NCBI RefSeq assembly: GCF_000001735.4
Contig: NC_003076.8
Coordinates: 6,572,001 to 6,636,000 of the forward strand
DNA: 64,000 bases
DNA from: Arabidopsis thaliana
Taxonomy: Eukaryota; Streptophyta; Magnoliopsida; Brassicales; Brassicaceae
Direction: 5' to 3'
A program made the position numbers and the translations under genes. A model generated the notes under the pieces. That model was not told the origin of the DNA. It saw nothing but the letters and a program-made list of their open reading frames with translations, and did no database searches. Below, one piece after another: positions 1,907 through 64,000 of the stretch (positions are counted from its first letter, which is position 1; each line of letters opens with the position of its first letter).

Positions 1907-4352
1907 TCATTTTCTAGCAAAGGTCTCTCCTTTGTGCTCACTCCCGGCACAAACAACATACCCTGCTTCCACCTATAAAACCAATTGATGTTTTGATTAT
2001 GGAATCTGTAAAAGCATTGATACGTAGGGGACACTGTATTATGAAAACTGAAGGGGGTAACGTACTTGGCAGTCTCTTAGAGTAACACGCTCTTGAAGCT
2101 GTGCGTTGCTGCAAATGACTGAGCCTTGTATTGAACATCCGTCTCCAATTGTGGCATGGTCCATCACAACTGAATTAACAATCTGCACCCACATATACAA
2201 GCAGTTGAGTGTCTTTTCGAGATGTACACCACCTTTCTTTGGCTGGCTTGAGTAAAAAGCTAATTATTACCTTCACATTGGAGCCTATCCGGCAATGTCT
2301 CCCAATTACAGATCTTTTGACACTGCATTTATCACCGACTTGAGAGCCTTCTCCAAGCATACAATGAGGTCCAACCTGCAACCCAAAAATTGTTATTCAC
2401 GATCACAACTCACAGAACAAATGCTCAATATCTACACATGTAGAGTTACGTACTGTGGTTTTCGATCCAAGCTCAGCTGATGGGTGGACAATGTTGTGAT
2501 GAGCAGAAAAGGAGTATCCAGATAGGTGGTTTGATTCACCAATAACCTGCACAAGTTTGAACAATTGCGGAGCTTCATAAGTCAACTGAGAAAAAAATAC
2601 TGGAGAAGGAATCCCATGTGTAAACAACTTACATCTCTGTTTACGTCCATGAAGGCTTGAATGCTATTCAAGCGGACGAAATACTTACTTTCATCCGCTA
2701 TATAAACACAGCATTTATGGGTTTTCCGGGTACCCAGACCTGATTCATAGACTTGATGAAAGCTTGGCATGGATGCGTTGGAGAGAATTTGAGACAAGAC
2801 CACCTCGTTGTTCTGCATATTATTTTTTCCATTTCCATTCCCATTTTCTTCTACATTACTTTGGTCAGAGAAGACATCTGATCTCTGATACTCAAGGGGA
2901 AACCGCACAAATAAGGAATCAAAATGGTAATAAAAAAAAAATGGTCATTTGCAAGGACCGTATCCGACTAACCAGCTGTGTACGAACAAGATACGGTAGT
3001 ACATCCTGTTTTAGGCTCCTAAAAGCAGGTTTTTGATCCAAAACTTCCTGCAGAACTGCTCTGTAAGACAAAAGAACATATTGAGTATCGACAGATAAAA
3101 CTACTTTGATAGCAGGAAAGCAGATCTGACCAACCTCTTGAAGGCATATATATGAGAATCCATCAGATCTGATCGAATTTCCATCTAAATCGAAAATGAC
3201 AAGATAATTAGAAACTGTACTAAGAATTTGTAATATATGAATCATAAAAAGATGCATTTGTAGGTAATTTCAAAAACTTAATAAGAACATTACCTTGCCA
3301 GCCGCACAGAGAATGCTCTTTTTTACTCGGGTATCTTTCTTAATCTCAGTACCTAACACAATTTCAGGAGGTAAACCAACAACAAGTTCAAGCATTTTGT
3401 TACCTCTAAGAAACATAAAGAAAAATTAAAAGTAGGACCTTTGGCTATGTATAACAAGAACTGTTTCAAGGAATCAAGCCCTATGATATCATCGCAAGCA
3501 GGTTTTTTGGTTTTATCTTTCCCACCAGAACCTCCTGATTCTGATGGCCCACTGACAGGTTGAGCACAAAGCATAACAGTCACTGCTGCATCATGCCTTC
3601 TATGAGTGGCGGCAACAGCACCAGGAGGAATATCAGAAACAATGTCTCCACTTACGATCTACGTCAAAGCAAATTACCAGTTAACTAGAAGCTCAAAAAG
3701 TTGCACAAAGCAAAAGCTACGAGACGTCTTTATTGAAAAGCTAACCAAAATGTCTTTGGCAGTTAAGTGGTGTGCAATTGCCCTGAGTGCCCCAGCAGTT
3801 CCAACATTCTCAGCAACAGCAGCAACCTAAAGTAAAATATCCAGCAGAACATTAATAACGAATATGACACTAGTTTCTTTCAATCATGCATAGAGTTTTA
3901 CAGAATTCAGATGCCATAGATGAGTAAATACCTCAACATGTAAACGATCAACACAAGCAGAAGAAATCCATCCACCAACTTTCAAAGCAGCATCTTCCCC
4001 TTCAACAACCTGTTCCACCAATGCGAAACGAAAAAATCTGAGCTCTATTGAAAACATTCAACCTAGAAACTCGCAAAAGGAAATCAGTAATTGTATTGAA
4101 AAGATAAAAGGCGTACGACGATCAGATCCTTGAGATTACTACTCTCGAGAAGATCCAGAACGTAAGACAACACCGGACGATTCGCTACGGGAAGCAACGC
4201 CTTAGGAACTTCCTGAACAACAACAACAAATTAGCAATTCGTCGAAACTGTTATGCTGATGATGAGAGTGAAAGAGAGAGACGGACCTTGGCGACTAAGG
4301 GAACAAGATAACTAGAGAATCCGCCGGCTAGAATCACGACCTGGAAATCCAT
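1907..4352 (-). CDS. Translation initiation factor eIF2B subunit gamma
   Basis: This is the gamma subunit (EIF2B3 orthologue) of eIF2B, the guanine nucleotide exchange factor that recharges eIF2 in cytosolic translation initiation. ATG is at 4352-4350; exon 1 (4287-4352) encodes MDFQVVILAGGFSSYLVPLV, the start of a nucleotidyltransferase-like domain with a LAGG motif. Next come PKALLPVANRPVLSYVLDLL and a VSGDIVSDIPPGAVAA stretch. The C-terminal half carries hexapeptide left-handed beta-helix repeats (HPSAELGSKTTVGPHCMLGE, SVKRSVIGRHCRIGSNVKI, NSVVMDHATIGDGCSIQGS). The reading ends GSEHKGETFARK before TGA (1907-1909). The coding sequence is split over many short exons and is about 450 residues long, normal for the family. 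Gamma lacks the catalytic C-terminal domain of eIF2B epsilon, so its role is structural and regulatory. Locus from memory AT5G19485. Confidence 0.9.
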
Positions 4353-4768
4353 TGTCGCAGCTGAATTGACGAGAGAAGACGAAGAAGAGAGGTTTCTGCT
4401 TTCTGGGGTTTTGATTTTGAGAAACGGTAGACGAAGACGATATCAATTTAACCCGCTTGTTTCTTTCTTTTGGATCCGACGGGTCGTTCCATTAATCTTG
4501 GGTTATCTATCTCACTTAAATATTTTAATTAAAATTAAACATTAACAAAGATTAAACCATACTTTATGTATATGATTTTATAGTTTGTGTAAAGCTTGCT
4601 ATCAAATTAGAAGAGATGAATGAAAAAAACGAAATTACATTAAAGAGAATGAGAGCAATCTCCTACATACACACTGCTTCTATAATATATAAGTGTGTCA
4701 ATTCCTAAGTTGTTGTTTTCTTTCTCCTACCTTTAGTTTTAAGTCATTTCACCTAAACTGAAACTCTT
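4353..4768. other. Promoter of eIF2B gamma and 3' region of the NC2-alpha-like gene
   Basis: Short AT-rich spacer between two minus-strand genes. It must contain the eIF2B gamma promoter and 5' leader (higher-numbered side of that gene) and the 3' untranslated region of the next gene. No clear TATA box or other element is seen. Confidence 0.5.
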
Positions 4769-6273
4769 TCACTCTTGGTCTATGCTTTCTTCATCATAAT
4801 CTTCCTCGTCACTAGCACTAGCCTGTTGTTGATCATCAGGATCTATTTTCATTTCGTTAATCTCCAACGGGTAATCTGGACTTCTCTCTAGCTGTGTTTC
4901 CAGCCATGTAGCATTGTCTCCATTCTCATCTAATTCAACATTAAGATCGAAGTTCCTTACTTTTACCTCTGAGTTACTACTATGATGATTGTTGTGTGAT
5001 GCAACTTTCTTCCAAGATGTATCGTCGTGAGAAAGGCTCCCGTTTTCGGGAGACGGGGTCCTGCTGCTTTCGGGAGAACCGTCTTCTAAATCTTCTTCAA
5101 ATTTTAGAGACAGCCCACTTCCTGTTCTTCCACTACTTCGTCCGCGGCCTCTACCTCGCCTTCCTCTGCCACAGCTAGTATGTTTGACCTCATGCTGTAA
5201 CAAGGCGAAACATATGCGTTAAGTAATATACAATTGTCTATTGGCAAAATAAGTCTGGCTAGTTACCATTTGAGTGGTCTTTATCATATCTTCATCGTTG
5301 CAACTACTTCCATCAACAACTTTCCTGAAAAGTCGAACAAACAAGTTGTTAGACACGATACCGATATCAAAATTAGGTAGATTGATTGCTGACATAGAAT
5401 AGAACTATAGAAGAAGCGGGCCTAACCTTCTTTTGGTAGCTGATTGGTCTTCAGTGTCTGAGCCACCCAAATCAGGAACTTTAGCGACAGTGTCTCTTAG
5501 AAAATCAAAGACATTAGTCGCTTGCACACACTGCTTCCTGGAAAAAGAATAGAAAAGTATTGAAGAAGCAAGAAAACAATTGGTTTATATAAGCAAAATC
5601 CAAAGATGAGATTCACACTTACAAATGAAAGGCGTTGACAGTTTTAGCACCTCGGCTTAGAGTTACATCATACGTGTGATTACACAAGTCTTGTAAAAAC
5701 AGCTCCAAAGCTTTAGCTGAAAAGTTAAATTCAAAACCAGAACAGATCAACTACATGTGACACAAGCTAACATATGAACAACGTTTGAGTAAGAAAATCA
5801 AAAACATCACATCACTTACAAACAAGAAGAGGGACTGCCATTGCTATTTTGCCAACTTCCTCATCAGTTTGCATAATCTTCTTAATCCTTGTCTGAAACA
5901 AATTTTGAACATATCAACACATACAAAATCAGACTCAGACACTAAGAAATTTCTTATGTAGATATCAACATCTTTGATTAGCCCTAAACAAGATATCTCT
6001 GCAGTTTATTTATATCTAGCCATGAACAAAAGAGCCCTCCAAGTCCAAAGATACATTCACAAAGATAAATTTAAAAACCTAATGAAGACAAGGACCATGG
6101 AACCCTGAAGAAGTAAACCTGAAATCATAGCAAAAGTTGAACCTAACTACTCTCACAACTCACAAAACAGAGTTCATGGTTATCTCCATAAGAAGAAGAA
6201 CATAACAAACTATAAAACAGTGAAAAGTAATGTTTCATACCGCTGGAAAACGTGTCTGGAGCTTCTTCTTCAT
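4769..6273 (-). CDS. Histone-fold transcriptional corepressor, NC2-alpha (DRAP1)/NF-YC-like
   Basis: ATG is at 6273-6271; exon 1 (6241-6273) encodes MKKKLQTRFPA. Later exons give TRIKKIMQTDEEVGKIAMAV, then SKALELFLQDLCNHTYDVTL and SRGAKTVNAFHLKQCV. This is a histone fold of the NC2-alpha/NF-YC type, with the family's FPxxRIKKIMQxDEEVG signature. NC2-alpha pairs with NC2-beta (Dr1) to bind TBP and block pre-initiation complex assembly. The last exon (4769 to about 5192) is long and low in complexity: an Arg/Gly tract (GRGRRGRGRGRSSGR), a Ser/Pro segment, the peptide FDLNVELDENG, and an acidic end (DEEDYDEESIDQE). The stop is TGA at 4769-4771. The N-terminal domain is firm; the function of the tail is unknown. 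Locus from memory AT5G19490. Confidence 0.85.
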
Positions 6274-56146: not shown

Positions 56147-57937
56147 TTACAGGGATGAAATAAATTTACATATAATATCGGTCACCTGAGAATCATATTC
56201 AGGTCCTTCCATCTGGAAATGACTAACGCCTTCAATGAGGTGTGTTTCAGTGCGTCCGACTGCAGATTTCAGCTTCTTCTTTAGCTGGCTAACGCTAGTG
56301 AACCCGTCTTGTGTTCCCATTACGAAGAGTTTGGGTTTAGGGGATGAGAGAATGGCCTTGTGGTGTCGCCCAAAGAGAATCGAGGCCATTAGGCCAAATG
56401 GGTATCCCAAACTCACATATCCCACCACTTGCTCTACTTGCTCCACCGCTGATCCTGCGATTGGTGCACCTGCCAAAGAGTCAAAACTTCAATTATTTTT
56501 CCTTTAACCAATATAAAGAAGTTGGCATGAGATATCAAATTTGTCTCAGAATATTCATTTGAAAAGTAATGTGATCACTTCATCCATTAAACACGTCATA
56601 TCAGAAAGTTAGTCGGTCACTATGATCAGTATAGGTAAGAGATGTGTTAGATGCTGTAGTATTTTATCTACAAATTTCTTATTTGCTATTGGTTCTATGC
56701 TCAGCAAGAAATTATGGAAAATACATTATGTGTAACAAACACGCAAAGAGATGCAAGTATACCAATAAAAGGGGGCACTGAAAGCAATCCTAGAAGAACT
56801 GATACGTTCATAGTCTTTAAAAAACTCCTGAAAGGACTCATATATCATCAATTGCAGTTTTGCAAATATGTGTAAGGGACATCAAAACAGAATTATGACA
56901 CACAAACAAGAAACAGAGTTATCTCGGTAGATAAGAAGAACAAACGAGAATTTCCTTTGGGAGACTGTAACATCTGATAAAGTCTACCTCAAAACCACCT
57001 AGACACTCTAAATTGACTCTGTTCAATGTTAAAACAATGCTAATCTTCTTCTTTCCACAGTGGATTGAACTTTCTTACTCCATTCTCATCTTATCAGACC
57101 ATCACTATACTCAAACATGGAACGTCAATTACATCAACTAAAACCACTTAGAGATACACGAGAGAGAAAACCTGGAACTTAACATGACCAACACCAAACC
57201 GGAACAAAGTTATCTCAGCTGATAATATCAACTAAATGAGCAAACAAAAGAGCATAAGCATAAACCTAAAACCAATTATTCTGTGTCACCAATCCGTTGT
57301 AATGTTAATGAGAAGTGAATAAGCAGCAAAAGGGTCACATTTTATCTTAAAAACCAACAGATCAAACACAAATTTTAACATAAAGCAATGCCCAGAATCT
57401 GTATACGAATCCATATACTGAATTCGAAATCAACTGTTACAGATCAACTTGTAAGAAGCAATTACCAGATCAAAAACATCAGACTTTAACTTGCAATCAA
57501 ATTCAAACTAAAACCAGATCAACAACGAAAGGAGCAACAAAATCAAAACTTGAATGGCATAGAAGAACCTTACCAGCAGAAGAACCCACGAGCAGGATCC
57601 TATGAGCATCAACATTCTGACAAAGCCACCGACAAACAGCGACCACATCCTTGACCTCAGCAAAGCCGGTAAGAGTAGCTCTTCCGGTGGATTTTCCGGC
57701 ACCTCTCGTATCGAAAGTGACAGACTTGAAACCCTTAGAGGCCAATTCAGAAGCTATGCCTTTGAGCAGAGCTTGACAACCACCCAAGAGCGAGAACGGG
57801 TGGACCAATACTATCACCAGATTCTCATCGTCGCTGACTTCTTCTCCTTCGTTTCTGGGTTTGAAGATTCTCGTGTGAAGCTTCACCCCTTCTTCTGAAT
57901 CAACGCTACACGATTCCACTATAAAGTTTGACGACAT
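56147..57937 (-). CDS. Small alpha/beta hydrolase family protein
   Basis: Two exons (57574-57937 and 56147-56469) separated by a 1.1-kb intron give 228 residues. ATG 57937-57935 starts MSSNFIVESCSVDSEEGVKL; there is no signal or transit peptide, so it is likely cytosolic. Alpha/beta hydrolase marks: strand-loop VIVLVHPFSLLGG (oxyanion region), FDTRGAGKSTG, and the nucleophile elbow VGSSAGAPIAG built exactly across the splice (Ser in GSSAG). The acid residue is in KPKLFVMGTQDGFTS and the His in IEGVSHFQMEGPEY. The catalytic triad therefore appears complete. The size is small, as in bacterial YfhR-like or carboxylesterase-like members. The substrate is unknown. Locus from memory AT5G19630. Confidence 0.88.
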
Positions 57938-58110: not shown

Positions 58111-58709
58111 TTACTAATACTTGCAAAAAAAGTTCTTTACTTTTAAAAATCAATATATTTATATAGTAATAATTGGCTAATAAATTTATATATTTCAAAA
58201 TAAGATTTTAAAAATTATCCACAAAATAAAATCAACGGTTAGAAGTTCTACTCAATGTTAATACTCTTCATTACGGTGTGCTTTTGGACCATGTTTGGTT
58301 TTAAATAATTCTTGTAAAATTATACTTGTGGGGCTTTTGTTTATTTTAGCCCATGTTTATTGGTTCAGTTTAATAATATCAGACACTTGTGAAAAAAATA
58401 AAGATTATAAAAAATTTTAATTAAAAAAAATATTCGATAATATATCTCATATATAAATTTCTTATTTGATATTTTTCTGTTGAAGTGATGATTTCATATG
58501 TCATAAATTATATTGTAAGAAAATGTGCATATTAGTTATTTCATATTCGCAGTTCAAAATTATATACTTATTAAGATAACCCTTTTTGATATTATCATAA
58601 AACAAAAATATATTTGGTTTTCTATTTTTGTTTGAATTGTATATGATCAGAATGGCGTTTTTTTGTTTGTTCAATAATAATTTTATTAAGTCACCACCAT
58701 ATTGACTAA
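57938..58709. other. Hydrolase promoter region and AT-rich spacer
   Basis: Upstream region of the hydrolase gene on the minus strand, then very AT-rich DNA up to the mobile element. It contains a 57-bp (TA)n tract at 58052-58108, only about 115 bp from the hydrolase start codon. Confidence 0.55.
58052..58108. repeat. (TA)n microsatellite
   Basis: About 57 bp of uninterrupted AT/TA repeat in the promoter-side DNA of the alpha/beta hydrolase gene. Confidence 0.92.
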
Positions 58710-58718
58710 TTAAAAAAT
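58710..58718 (+). repeat. Target site duplication of the outer element, left copy
   Basis: TTAAAAAAT, 9 bp, immediately before the element end GGGATTGTGAC. The same 9 bp follows the other end at 63472-63480. Nine bp is the classic Mutator-superfamily duplication length. Confidence 0.88.
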
Positions 58719-60968
58719 GGGATTGTGACACGTTTAGGCACTTTTTGATAATATTATTCTTTTTGAGACACTTATGAGAGAGTGAGCACTTTGCCATCTT
58801 TTTGAGAGAAAATTGGACCAATTTACCCCTAAAGTAGTGATTACGCAATAATTTTAACTCATTATTGTTGAGATCGTGTGGGTGAGAAATTTTCTTCTTT
58901 TTATCATCTCTCTCTTCCATATTCTTTTGTTTTTCATCATTTTCAATTCTCTCTTTCAAAATCATTGTTGTTCTCTATAATTCTTACAAAATCATGGTCG
59001 TTCCCATTAATTTTCTCTCCTTTCCATAAGAAATCACCAATCTTCATTATACCATATATAATCTCCTCATAAACTTTCGATTTGTCGTCTCCTCATAATC
59101 TCTTCATAATCTCCAAGTTTGAGATCCACGACAACAAACCCAGGAAGAAGATGATCATCATCCTTGCGATTCTCAGAATCCTCTAACAATAAGTTTCTTT
59201 GTTATTGTCTCTACTGATTTTTTCTGTTTATATCACCGTGAAATTCTAGATATTACGATGTTACAGAGATTAGAGGTCTTTGTTCATCGTGAATTTACTT
59301 GCGATTAAATCGAACAATTAGTGGATTAGGCTTTTATAGTTTGCTAGTCATGTTTTTTCTGAAAATATTGAAGTTATGGGTTTAATTTATTTGAAAACTG
59401 ATAGAGAAGCCCAAGTTGATATATCGAACGTTGATGGATGTGTTTGGTAAATCTTTGTTCGTGGATAAAAGTGTGTTTGTAGCTCGCTCTGCTTTTGTTA
59501 TTGGTATGTGCATTATGGATGGCTTATTATGGATTGTGAATTATGGATTGTTATGGTGAGATTTGTGAATCTTTTCATGTTTGATTAATAGGTGAACAAT
59601 CCCAAAAACAAGCTATATGTGGTGATTTTGTTACAATGATGTCCATATTAATTGGTGGTTACAGAACACTTGCTGCAAAGGCTACAGAACAGTGGCTGAA
59701 AAGCGGTGGATAGAGGACATTGACGAGTGTCCAAAAAATCAAGTCCAAATGGTCACCTAGTAACTCACATGTCGTTTCATATCAATGCACAAATTTAGAC
59801 ATGAACAGTAATCGTCGATAAAAAATTGTTGAGCTTTTGGGGTTCTTCCTCTATTTAACTTTTAGAGGTTCACTTCTCTTACATCTCTCATTTCTCATTA
59901 ATGCTTTGCTTAACTCACTCATTTTAACACAAGCACAAAAAGAACCTTCACTCTCTTTCTCTCTAGTCTTTGGTTAGTTTCTTGTTTTGACACGAAGACA
60001 TAAAACGATTAGTAAGAGAGAGAAAAGAGAAAACATTAGTTGTCAACATTTTTGTATTGGATCTAAAGATAAATTCTTATAACAAGACATACACACATTT
60101 GTGGATGGTTATAATTGTTAAATCCAACTTTTAATTTTACTGAAATTACAGAAGATCTCTACAAGGTCTCAAAGGCTCACGTTGTATCCATGAAGCTAAA
60201 GTTCATGAACCAAAATTAGCAAAGGCTGTCCACAACACTGACTGTCATTATGATGTGTGTCCATATATCCAACGTTTTATGGTAGAGTTTATATAGTATA
60301 GTATGTGAATGTATTAACCTTGTGGATGTAATTGTATGGTTAATTTTGTTCATTTAATAAGATTAACCAAATTAATTGGTCATGGTTTCCAAAATAATCT
60401 CGAATCCTTTGTAAAAAAAAACTAATCTGCGAAATATAAGTGAAGAGAATCAGAGCTAGATCCACGTTTGAGAGGATAACGTCCTCTTGACGGAGATATG
60501 ATTGTTGGAGCGGCAAAAAGATAGGGTCTAGAACTTCGAGAGAAAGAGAGAAACGTAACTTGCCCAAGTGGTTACAATTTTGATGCGGTTGTTGAAATTC
60601 GGGAGAGGCTTCACGATCATGGAATCGAAATCGAAAGAGAGAATGTCGATAGCGTTGTTGTAATTTTCGAGGAAACTTCTGACGGAAATTCTGTGACCGG
60701 AGACTTTCACATGTTTTGGAATCGGATCCAGCAGACAAAGGTGGATTTGAGAATATATTTGAAAAAGATCTCGAGAGAGAAAGAAGAAGAGAAGCAATAG
60801 ATTGTTGAGAGATAAGGAAGATGATGATAAACCTTAAGAGATTCAATTTTGAATATTAAGAGTGTCCTAAAAGATTGGATTTTTATTCTGGAAAGAGAGA
60901 TGAAGAACAAGAGAGGCCAAAATTGTTTTTGTATTCCTAAAAAAAAAGATAACGAAGAGATATTACTA
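58719..60968 (+). repeat. Inverted repeat, left arm (2250 bp)
   Basis: Reverse complement of 61091-63340, pairing position x with 122059 minus x and needing no net insertion or deletion over 2250 bp. In the parts compared by eye only one mismatch was found (58738 versus 63321). Confidence 0.93.
60960..60968 (+). repeat. Target site duplication of the inner element, left copy
   Basis: ATATTACTA, 9 bp, abuts the inner element end GAGAATATTACG at 60969. The second copy is at 63341-63349. The intact target, ATATTACTAAGCAAAGG, can be read in reverse complement inside the inner copy itself (about 61083-61099). Confidence 0.9.
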
Positions 60969-63340
60969 GAGAATATTACGTGTTGAGGCACTTTTCTGAA
61001 AGTTTAGCCGTAATTAGGCACTTCACAATCATTAGACACTTTTTTGATGTGAATTGACATCACTACCCTTTAACTATCTCTTCCTTTGCTTAGTAATATC
61101 TCTTCGTTATCTTTTTTTTTAGGAATACAAAAACAATTTTGGCCTCTCTTGTTCTTCATCTCTCTTTCCAGAATAAAAATCCAATCTTTTAGGACACTCT
61201 TAATATTCAAAATTGAATCTCTTAAGGTTTATCATCATCTTCCTTATCTCTCAACAATCTATTGCTTCTCTTCTTCTTTCTCTCTCGAGATCTTTTTCAA
61301 ATATATTCTCAAATCCACCTTTGTCTGCTGGATCCGATTCCAAAACATGTGAAAGTCTCCGGTCACAGAATTTCCGTCAGAAGTTTCCTCGAAAATTACA
61401 ACAACGCTATCGACATTCTCTCTTTCGATTTCGATTCCATGATCGTGAAGCCTCTCCCGAATTTCAACAACCGCATCAAAATTGTAACCACTTGGGCAAG
61501 TTACGTTTCTCTCTTTCTCTCGAAGTTCTAGACCCTATCTTTTTGCCGCTCCAACAATCATATCTCCGTCAAGAGGACGTTATCCTCTCAAACGTGGATC
61601 TAGCTCTGATTCTCTTCACTTATATTTCGCAGATTAGTTTTTTTTTACAAAGGATTCGAGATTATTTTGGAAACCATGACCAATTAATTTGGTTAATCTT
61701 ATTAAATGAACAAAATTAACCATACAATTACATCCACAAGGTTAATACATTCACATACTATACTATATAAACTCTACCATAAAACGTTGGATATATGGAC
61801 ACACATCATAATGACAGTCAGTGTTGTGGACAGCCTTTGCTAATTTTGGTTCATGAACTTTAGCTTCATGGATACAACGTGAGCCTTTGAGACCTTGTAG
61901 AGATCTTCTGTAATTTCAGTAAAATTAAAAGTTGGATTTAACAATTATAACCATCCACAAATGTGTGTATGTCTTGTTATAAGAATTTATCTTTAGATCC
62001 AATACAAAAATGTTGACAACTAATGTTTTCTCTTTTCTCTCTCTTACTAATCGTTTTATGTCTTCGTGTCAAAACAAGAAACTAACCAAAGACTAGAGAG
62101 AAAGAGAGTGAAGGTTCTTTTTGTGCTTGTGTTAAAATGAGTGAGTTAAGCAAAGCATTAATGAGAAATGAGAGATGTAAGAGAAGTGAACCTCTAAAAG
62201 TTAAATAGAGGAAGAACCCCAAAAGCTCAACAATTTTTTATCGACGATTACTGTTCATGTCTAAATTTGTGCATTGATATGAAACGACATGTGAGTTACT
62301 AGGTGACCATTTGGACTTGATTTTTTGGACACTCGTCAATGTCCTCTATCCACCGCTTTTCAGCCACTGTTCTGTAGCCTTTGCAGCAAGTGTTCTGTAA
62401 CCACCAATTAATATGGACATCATTGTAACAAAATCACCACATATAGCTTGTTTTTGGGATTGTTCACCTATTAATCAAACATGAAAAGATTCACAAATCT
62501 CACCATAACAATCCATAATTCACAATCCATAATAAGCCATCCATAATGCACATACCAATAACAAAAGCAGAGCGAGCTACAAACACACTTTTATCCACGA
62601 ACAAAGATTTACCAAACACATCCATCAACGTTCGATATATCAACTTGGGCTTCTCTATCAGTTTTCAAATAAATTAAACCCATAACTTCAATATTTTCAG
62701 AAAAAACATGACTAGCAAACTATAAAAGCCTAATCCACTAATTGTTCGATTTAATCGCAAGTAAATTCACGATGAACAAAGACCTCTAATCTCTGTAACA
62801 TCGTAATATCTAGAATTTTACGGTGATATAAACAGAAAAAATCAGTAGAGACAATAACAAAGAAACTTATTGTTAGAGGATTCTGAGAATCGCAAGGATG
62901 ATGATCATCTTCTTCCTGGGTTTGTTGTCGTGGATCTCAAACTTGGAGATTATGAAGAGATTATGAGGAGACGACAAATCGAAAGTTTATGAGGAGATTA
63001 TATATGGTATAATGAAGATTGGTGATTTCTTATGGAAAGGAGAGAAAATTAATGGGAACGACCATGATTTTGTAAGAATTATAGAGAACAACAATGATTT
63101 TGAAAGAGAGAATTGAAAATGATGAAAAACAAAAGAATATGGAAGAGAGAGATGATAAAAAGAAGAAAATTTCTCACCCACACGATCTCAACAATAATGA
63201 GTTAAAATTATTGCGTAATCACTACTTTAGGGGTAAATTGGTCCAATTTTCTCTCAAAAAGATGGCAAAGTGCTCACTCTCTCATAAGTGTCTCAAAAAG
63301 AATAATATTATCAAAAAGTGTCTAAACGTGTCACAATCCC
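60969..63340 (+). mobile_element. Non-autonomous Mutator-like element (inner copy), complete
   Basis: Complete 2372-bp copy, from GAGAATATTACG at 60969 to CACAATCCC at 63340, flanked by the 9-bp duplication ATATTACTA. Its length equals the joined outer copy exactly. It lies in reverse orientation inside the outer copy, which makes the whole locus a palindrome. Internally it has CT-rich leader-like stretches and two overlapping frames starting at 61213 and 61262. Those frames could be pieces captured from a host gene, but I recognise no family and no transposase. Near-identity of the copies indicates recent movement. Confidence 0.9.
61091..63340 (-). repeat. Inverted repeat, right arm (2250 bp)
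   Basis: Partner of 58719-60968. The arms are separated by only 122 bp (60969-61090), which is itself the reverse complement of 63350-63471. Confidence 0.93.
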
Positions 63341-63349
63341 ATATTACTA
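63341..63349 (+). repeat. Target site duplication of the inner element, right copy
   Basis: ATATTACTA directly after the inner element end CAATCCC, identical to 60960-60968. Confidence 0.9.
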
Positions 63350-63471
63350 AGCAAAGGAAGAGATAGTTAAAGGGTAGTGATGTCAATTCACATCAAAAAA
63401 GTGTCTAATGATTGTGAAGTGCCTAATTACGGCTAAACTTTCAGAAAAGTGCCTCAACACGTAATATTCTC

Positions 63472-63480
63472 TTAAAAAAT
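63472..63480 (+). repeat. Target site duplication of the outer element, right copy
   Basis: TTAAAAAAT directly after the element end AATATTCTC, identical to 58710-58718. Confidence 0.88.
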
Positions 63481-64000
63481 TGTTTGCTTGTCCTTTTTAT
63501 GTCAACCTCTTATAAATTCTTTCTGAAGAGTGAATTGGACCTTGACTCAATCAATCCTCCTTTTTCTGCCAATAAATTGGGTCAATTTGCTCAAAGATCT
63601 ACTAATATCCTCCTCTCTTTTTTCCTACAATTCAAAGACGAAAAAACGTTTGGTTAATAATTTTCCTAGAAAGGAAGAAGTCTTTTGTTCGAATATTCCC
63701 GGGGTAAAAGGAGAGTGAAGTTTACTCTCTCTAATCAAAAAAAAAAAAAAAAAAGAAGTCTATCGTTAATTAAAAAAAAAATGAAGAAGAAGTCTATTGT
63801 CCAACAAACTCGAAGCTTTTACTCCCTTAATTTCTCAAGGTAAGTAATATTTTGTAGGGCCAGTAACACAAAACAATTGCAACAACTAGATTAGGGCTCT
63901 AACTTCTCATGATAACTATACAAGAACGAGCCAGCTTCTTATATTAGTTAAGCTCTATTGCTAGATTCACTTGTATCTCTCTCTGTTTCTTTGAGTTTAA
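63481..64000. other. Intergenic DNA to the window end
   Basis: Unique AT-rich DNA with an A tract near 63737-63754. The last 100 bp are CT-rich, like a plant 5' leader, so a plus-strand gene may begin just beyond the window. No coding exon can be supported here. Confidence 0.4.

Follow-up and report, generated by a model that had tools for sequence, protein, structure and literature searches.

A Mutator-like element nested in inverted orientation within a near-identical copy of itself in Arabidopsis thaliana

How could a 4753-bp palindrome have come to lie between two genes of Arabidopsis thaliana? The palindrome occupies positions 58719-63471 of the window, i.e., of the whole 64,000-bp stretch of DNA analysed (C5:6572001-6636000); the genome searched comprises 119,662,809 bases. 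A repeat search defines two arms of 2255 nt separated by a spacer of 122 nt, and chance cannot account for arms of such length (about 2.25 kb). The palindrome is situated in a divergent upstream region, the flanking genes being both transcribed outward. The left neighbour is represented by minus-strand exons that are alpha/beta-hydrolase-like (57503-57937 and 56147-56476, the label having been read from the translation), while a POT-family transporter gene (Pfam PTR2) lies on the plus strand directly to the right of the window. At Rfam gathering scores, no structured RNA was matched within 58600-63600.

The palindrome consists of two copies of a 2372-bp element, the second copy being inverted inside the first, plus 9 bp (2372 + 2372 + 9). 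The outer copy lies on the plus strand and is split: element positions 1-2250, including the left end and the body, are found at 58719-60968, and positions 2251-2372 with the right end at 63350-63471. Between these two parts, the inner copy is inserted on the minus strand as a complete 2372-bp element (60969-63340). It is flanked by a 9-bp target-site duplication, ATATTACTA, at 60960-60968 and 63341-63349, and sequence comparison reveals another 9-bp duplication, TTAAAAAAT, around the outer copy at 58710-58718 and 63472-63480 (no strand applies to either). Both duplications are perfect, and both copies are complete to their ends. The ends of the element are imperfect inverted repeats of 27 bp: the outer left terminus (58719-58745, plus strand) matches the right terminal 27 bp at 20 of 27 positions when compared in inverted orientation. 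In the inner copy, the right terminal 27 bp, GAGAATATTACGTGTTGAGGCACTTTT, occupy 60969-60995 (plus strand), and the left terminal 27 bp, bearing a private G>A change at element position 20, occupy 63314-63340 (minus strand). Each of the two junctions of the composite, left and right, occurs once in the genome with up to 3 mismatches allowed. On recomputation, the coordinates, the lengths, the inverted orientation and both 9-bp duplications reported in the initial annotation were all reproduced. Its wording that the two copies are the same 2372-bp sequence is accurate as far as near-identity is concerned, but the copies differ at 2 of 2372 positions.

The element had been labelled Mutator-like from the beginning, and this label is borne out by the 9-bp duplication and by a larger relative which has similar ends and carries MULE transposase domains. 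In MULEs, target-site duplications range from 8 to 11 bp; here, they are present on five of the six full-length copies known in the genome, with lengths of 9 (outer), 9 (inner), 10 (C2), 9 (C3) and 9 bp (C4). With up to 3 mismatches, the right-end pattern has 137 matches in the genome versus 10 for the reversed-pattern control, and the left-end pattern has 41 versus 0. The relative was found by crossing end-pattern matches with MULE domain matches (150 of the 292 domain candidates were scored). It spans 7876 bp at C5:10153032-10160907, with TACATTTAA as its 9-bp duplication; its similarity to the element covers both ends (80% over 87 bp and 73% over 74 bp) and also an internal repeat. MULE, Transposase_mut, SWIM and DBD_Tnp_Mut domains are encoded in two of its reading frames. 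Within a single copy of the 2372-bp element, the longest frame is 168 aa, and the 150 scored of the 292 candidates include no MULE domain at this place; no transposase gene of its own being found, the element would be a non-autonomous member of the superfamily. When the first 60 residues of frames of at least 170 aa were read by eye in the end-similar relatives and the locations of these relatives were set against the scored MULE domain matches, no transposase-coding member was noticed. A possible affiliation of the element is with the ATDNAI27T9 families, whose name denotes imperfect 27-bp ends and 9-bp duplications, both of which fit. ATDNAI27T9 is termed a MuDR TE in PMC12312487. Further MULE-domain candidates near family ends are located at C2:4612582 (left end at C2:4618126) and C1:8796469 (right end at C1:8790242).

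A check of the genome for solo relatives of the 2372-bp element yielded four further full-length copies, on C2 (99.5% identity), C3 (99.0%), C1 (94.4%) and C4 (about 95%), the last being split by roughly 1.8 kb of sequence foreign to the element. Three of the four have a 9-10 bp duplication of their own: a 10-bp one in the C2 solo (TTCAATTAAA) and 9-bp ones in the C3 and C4 solos (TTTGTTATT and TCTTTTCTA, respectively); the C1 solo is without one. The inner insertion site is unbroken in all four solos, none of which is already palindromic at the same breakpoints; solos with such a palindrome are what the initial annotation would have counted against itself. The ATATTACTA sequence is present as a single copy in the C2, C3 and C4 solos, and this stretch is missing from the C1 solo. 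None of the four solos bears palindrome arms, and a Foldback family, as a candidate for the origin of the locus, has been rejected on this ground.

The alignment of the six copies makes it possible to ask where the inner copy came from. The inner and outer copies mismatch at element position 20 (window 58738/63321) and at element position 522 (window 59240/62819), the change being G>A in the inner copy in both cases. At these positions, the outer copy agrees with all four solos, the new base being present in the inner copy alone; thus, there are two private changes in the inner copy and none in the outer. At positions 174, 615, 1546 and 2271, derived bases are common to the outer and inner copies and occur in none of the solos, and no derived base groups either copy with a solo against the other. 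A single conversion tract within the long arms cannot account for all four shared bases because position 2271 belongs to the 122-bp tail, beyond the arms. The shared derived bases, together with private changes confined to the inner copy, indicate that the latter descends from the outer copy or from its immediate twin. The nested anatomy, the common immediate parent and the uniqueness of both junctions in the genome are firm, and it is very probable that the palindrome arose by self-insertion, i.e., that one copy inserted, inverted and with a target-site duplication, into another copy derived from the same immediate parent. The same reading in the initial annotation is upheld by the nested duplications, the complete ends, the site unbroken in four of four solos, the unique junctions and the four shared derived bases.

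The donor may have been the outer copy itself, and the latter was likely present at the locus before nesting. By simple arithmetic, a random insertion would land in any of the six copies with a probability of about 1.2e-4 per event; therefore, local or sister-chromatid movement would be the simplest route. If mutations occur at 7e-9 per site and generation, two accrued differences would date the nesting to about 60,000 generations ago (95% range 7,000-218,000), a figure that would be an underestimate if the arms underwent gene conversion, which could have raised their similarity.

Two rival explanations contest the donor and the order of events alone and overlap with self-insertion in everything else. 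According to the first, both copies arrived from a third donor, now missing, that had already carried the four shared bases, and the second arrival hit the first by chance. Such an identical donor, absent from the present genome, would explain the shared and the private bases equally well. However, a search with the left 1082 bp (40 of the 61 candidates scored) gave, apart from the six copies, two matches above 90%, of 388 bp at C1:11241767 and of 83 bp at C2:1777846, and a given copy would seldom be hit at random, the chance being about 2e-5 per insertion. A missing donor, therefore, seems unlikely. According to the second, the composite was made elsewhere and the whole 4753-bp unit then transposed into the locus, creating TTAAAAAAT. 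The sequence is consistent with this, the outer ends being intact and a perfect duplication enclosing the entire unit, yet neither junction is found a second time in the genome with up to 3 mismatches allowed, which makes a move of the ready-made composite distinctly improbable. It is here that the initial annotation went too far in holding that both insertions and their order are recorded: the nesting order is, whereas the order of events at this locus is not, since a ready-made composite could have landed whole.

The explanations that dispense with a second transposition fare much worse. Inverted duplication or fold-back replication caused by a template switch would also yield large near-perfect arms around a 122-bp centre, but the inner copy has both of its termini in full, and the 9 bp repeated on either side of it are present only once in three of the four solos, the stretch being missing from the fourth; there is no reason for a replication error to end exactly at the termini and to duplicate 9 bp. 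Because of the inner duplication and the complete inner ends, this origin is rejected as having hardly any probability. An artefact of assembly across repeated copies, palindromes being difficult to assemble, is just as implausible given the two private differences, the unique junctions and two different perfect duplication pairs.

Self-insertion suggests the following course of events. The 2372-bp non-autonomous element would first have been located between the divergent alpha/beta-hydrolase-like and POT-family transporter genes. A copy of this outer element or of its immediate twin would then have moved, most likely locally or from the sister chromatid, with a transposase like that of the 7876-bp relative presumably supplied in trans. 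It would have inserted in the opposite orientation 122 bp from the right end, duplicating ATATTACTA. A transcript crossing the resulting locus would fold into near-perfect dsRNA of about 2.25 kb, which could feed siRNAs against the family. Read-through from the neighbours is not expected because both are transcribed outward, so that such a hairpin RNA would depend on a promoter lying within the element or antisense to it. Moreover, the locus now has four ends, left and right in both direct and inverted orientation, and these would permit the aberrant pairing of ends known from double Ds in maize. The significance of the locus is twofold: it is a clean fossil of Mutator self-insertion in a model plant, where the donor relationship, the target and both duplications are readable, and it offers a testable example of how a long hairpin locus, potentially able to silence the family it belongs to, might arise naturally in one step.

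The element itself is best described as a Pack-MULE-like mosaic, as it contains three fragments each of which matches one place outside the family with 88-89% identity. The first agrees at 96 of 109 positions (88%) with the coding sequence of a WD40 gene of 341 aa, which we take to be TTG1. In the outer copy, this TTG1-like fragment lies at 60594-60702 on the minus strand, antisense to the element read from left to right, and position arithmetic places it at 61357-61465 on the plus strand in the inner copy. In the PDB, the WD40 gene matched, at E <=1e-20, WDR24 of GATOR2 alone, so that no gene name could be drawn from it. The second fragment (60699-60794, minus strand as judged by the shared reading frame) shares 4 bp with the first and is identical at 85 of 97 positions (88%) to C1:27358710-27358805. 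The third (60391-60462, no strand) is identical at 65 of 73 positions (89%) to C4:6762882-6762953, beside HMG-box exons. The direction of transfer was probably from gene to element, and the capture predates the nesting because the full-length alignments of the solos span the fragments. Through the captured sequence, the hairpin could possibly touch a host gene; the longest exact stretch shared with the TTG1 locus is 22 nt.

Aside from the palindrome, the family ends are clustered in the genome. The set of ends analysed (n = 140) included 99 right ends at up to 2 mismatches and 41 left ends at up to 3, with 38 right-end matches at 3 mismatches excluded. At 138 distinct positions, five end pairs lie less than 200 bp apart, compared with about 0.06 expected from the pair density at 10-200 kb. 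One of the five is the palindrome locus itself, and in two others the ends are 7 and 16 bp apart, adjacent rather than nested. At C3:2258772-2260993 (outer duplication TTTTAATGA), there is an inverted relative whose right end is 39 bp from the outer left end; it was rejected as a clean replica of the palindrome since the far end of the inverted relative is degraded and a clean duplication is not seen. The pair at C4:5200474/5200519 was rejected too, as it may represent a terminal duplication. In the sequence read at the four other close pairs, no clean inner duplication was seen. Among the 43 end pairings listed, left-left pairing is found at the palindrome locus only and right-right pairing in 7 cases, the palindrome locus included, in part because the right-end pattern also picks up left-like ends such as C2:1793707, a match to the left end of the element. 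As a post hoc lead, the clustering is a hint that the family targets its own ends, and it would fit either insertion near own ends or local transposition. A bolder generalization, rather improbable at present, is that this MULE lineage prefers to insert into or next to the ends of its own relatives, so that its targeting would yield double elements and ready-made hairpin loci time and again. If so, inverted cases would give an element with short TIRs kilobase-long inverted arms in a single step, and carriers of host scraps, such as that of TTG1 with its one exact 22-nt match, would yield a hairpin able to emit siRNAs against a host gene. What is least ordinary here is how clean the record is, that a host-gene fragment lies within the hairpin, and that family ends are clustered. 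The literature searched provided no report on MULE self-insertion in Arabidopsis and none joining Pack-MULE with TTG1 in this plant, and the phrase "inserted into itself" was absent among the literature matches listed.

Self-insertion as such has been known since the maize double Ds (sh-m5933 type), where a non-autonomous transposon has a near-identical copy of itself nested inside it the other way round, and by this analogy the palindrome is a clean new example. Here, too, a near-identical copy is inserted inverted, with a target duplication. However, Ds is a hAT element with 8-bp duplications, and double Ds causes chromosome breakage with Ac, whereas the present element belongs to Mutator, makes 9-bp duplications and is known from sequence alone. 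The term double Ds appears in PMC3260210. Within the Mutator family there is Mu killer of maize, an inverted duplication whose hairpin RNA has been proposed to silence the family; according to the available passages of the same work, its antisense transcripts begin inside the locus rather than by read-through, and antisense RNAs are offered as a new model, with a contribution of the hairpin left possible (PMC3440606). Both loci are inverted duplications within the Mutator family, the hairpin at the palindrome being predicted from its bases. Mu killer differs in being a partial inverted duplication of the transposase gene with two like ends, and the passages available describe no self-insertion (PMC3440606). 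As no transposase has been found in the element, any siRNAs from the palindrome might act on its siblings, yet scarcely on the gene for the transposase. Autointegration has been documented for other DNA transposons (PMC3952818), and there, as here, the transposon's own DNA serves as a target. As described there, autointegration is intramolecular and destructive, resulting in deletion circles or inversion products, while here two complete copies persist. Finally, Pack-MULEs and Pack-TYPE elements are likewise non-autonomous and Mutator-like and carry host-gene fragments; the difference is that the present element has been turned into a palindrome.

The Mutator-like family to which the palindrome belongs contains a second inverted pair on chromosome 3 (C3:2258772-2260993, locus L042), where a related element flanked by the duplication TTTTAATGA contains another family member in inverted orientation. 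The right end of this inner member lies 39 bp from the left end of the outer element, and its far end is degraded. Family ends also adjoin each other at two sites on chromosome 1. At C1:16457609/16457616, a 6-bp gap separates the left end of solo copy C1, which itself lacks a target duplication, from another member's right end beyond it. At C1:13850829/13850845, two ends of the family, one right and one left, stand back to back, 15 bp apart. The solo copy on chromosome 4 (C4:9794408-9798602, locus L012) is split by an insert of ~1.8 kb (about 3926-5734 of the locus), which, as an impression from its sequence, looks hAT-like.

Within the palindrome, the inner target ATATTACTA (window 60960-60968) and the right terminus of the element GAGAATATTAC (window 60969-60979) have the 7-mer ATATTAC in common. 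Both changes private to the inner copy (window 58738/63321 and 59240/62819) are G>A, that is, C>T in the CHH context on the opposite strand, a pattern as would be expected of methylated-cytosine decay.

The element also carries a 109-bp host-gene fragment (window 60594-60702) with a 22-nt exact match to a gene encoding a 341-aa WD40 protein, which we take to be TTG1, a regulator of trichomes and the seed coat. This fragment could possibly serve as a source of siRNAs against TTG1, provided that the hairpin is expressed.
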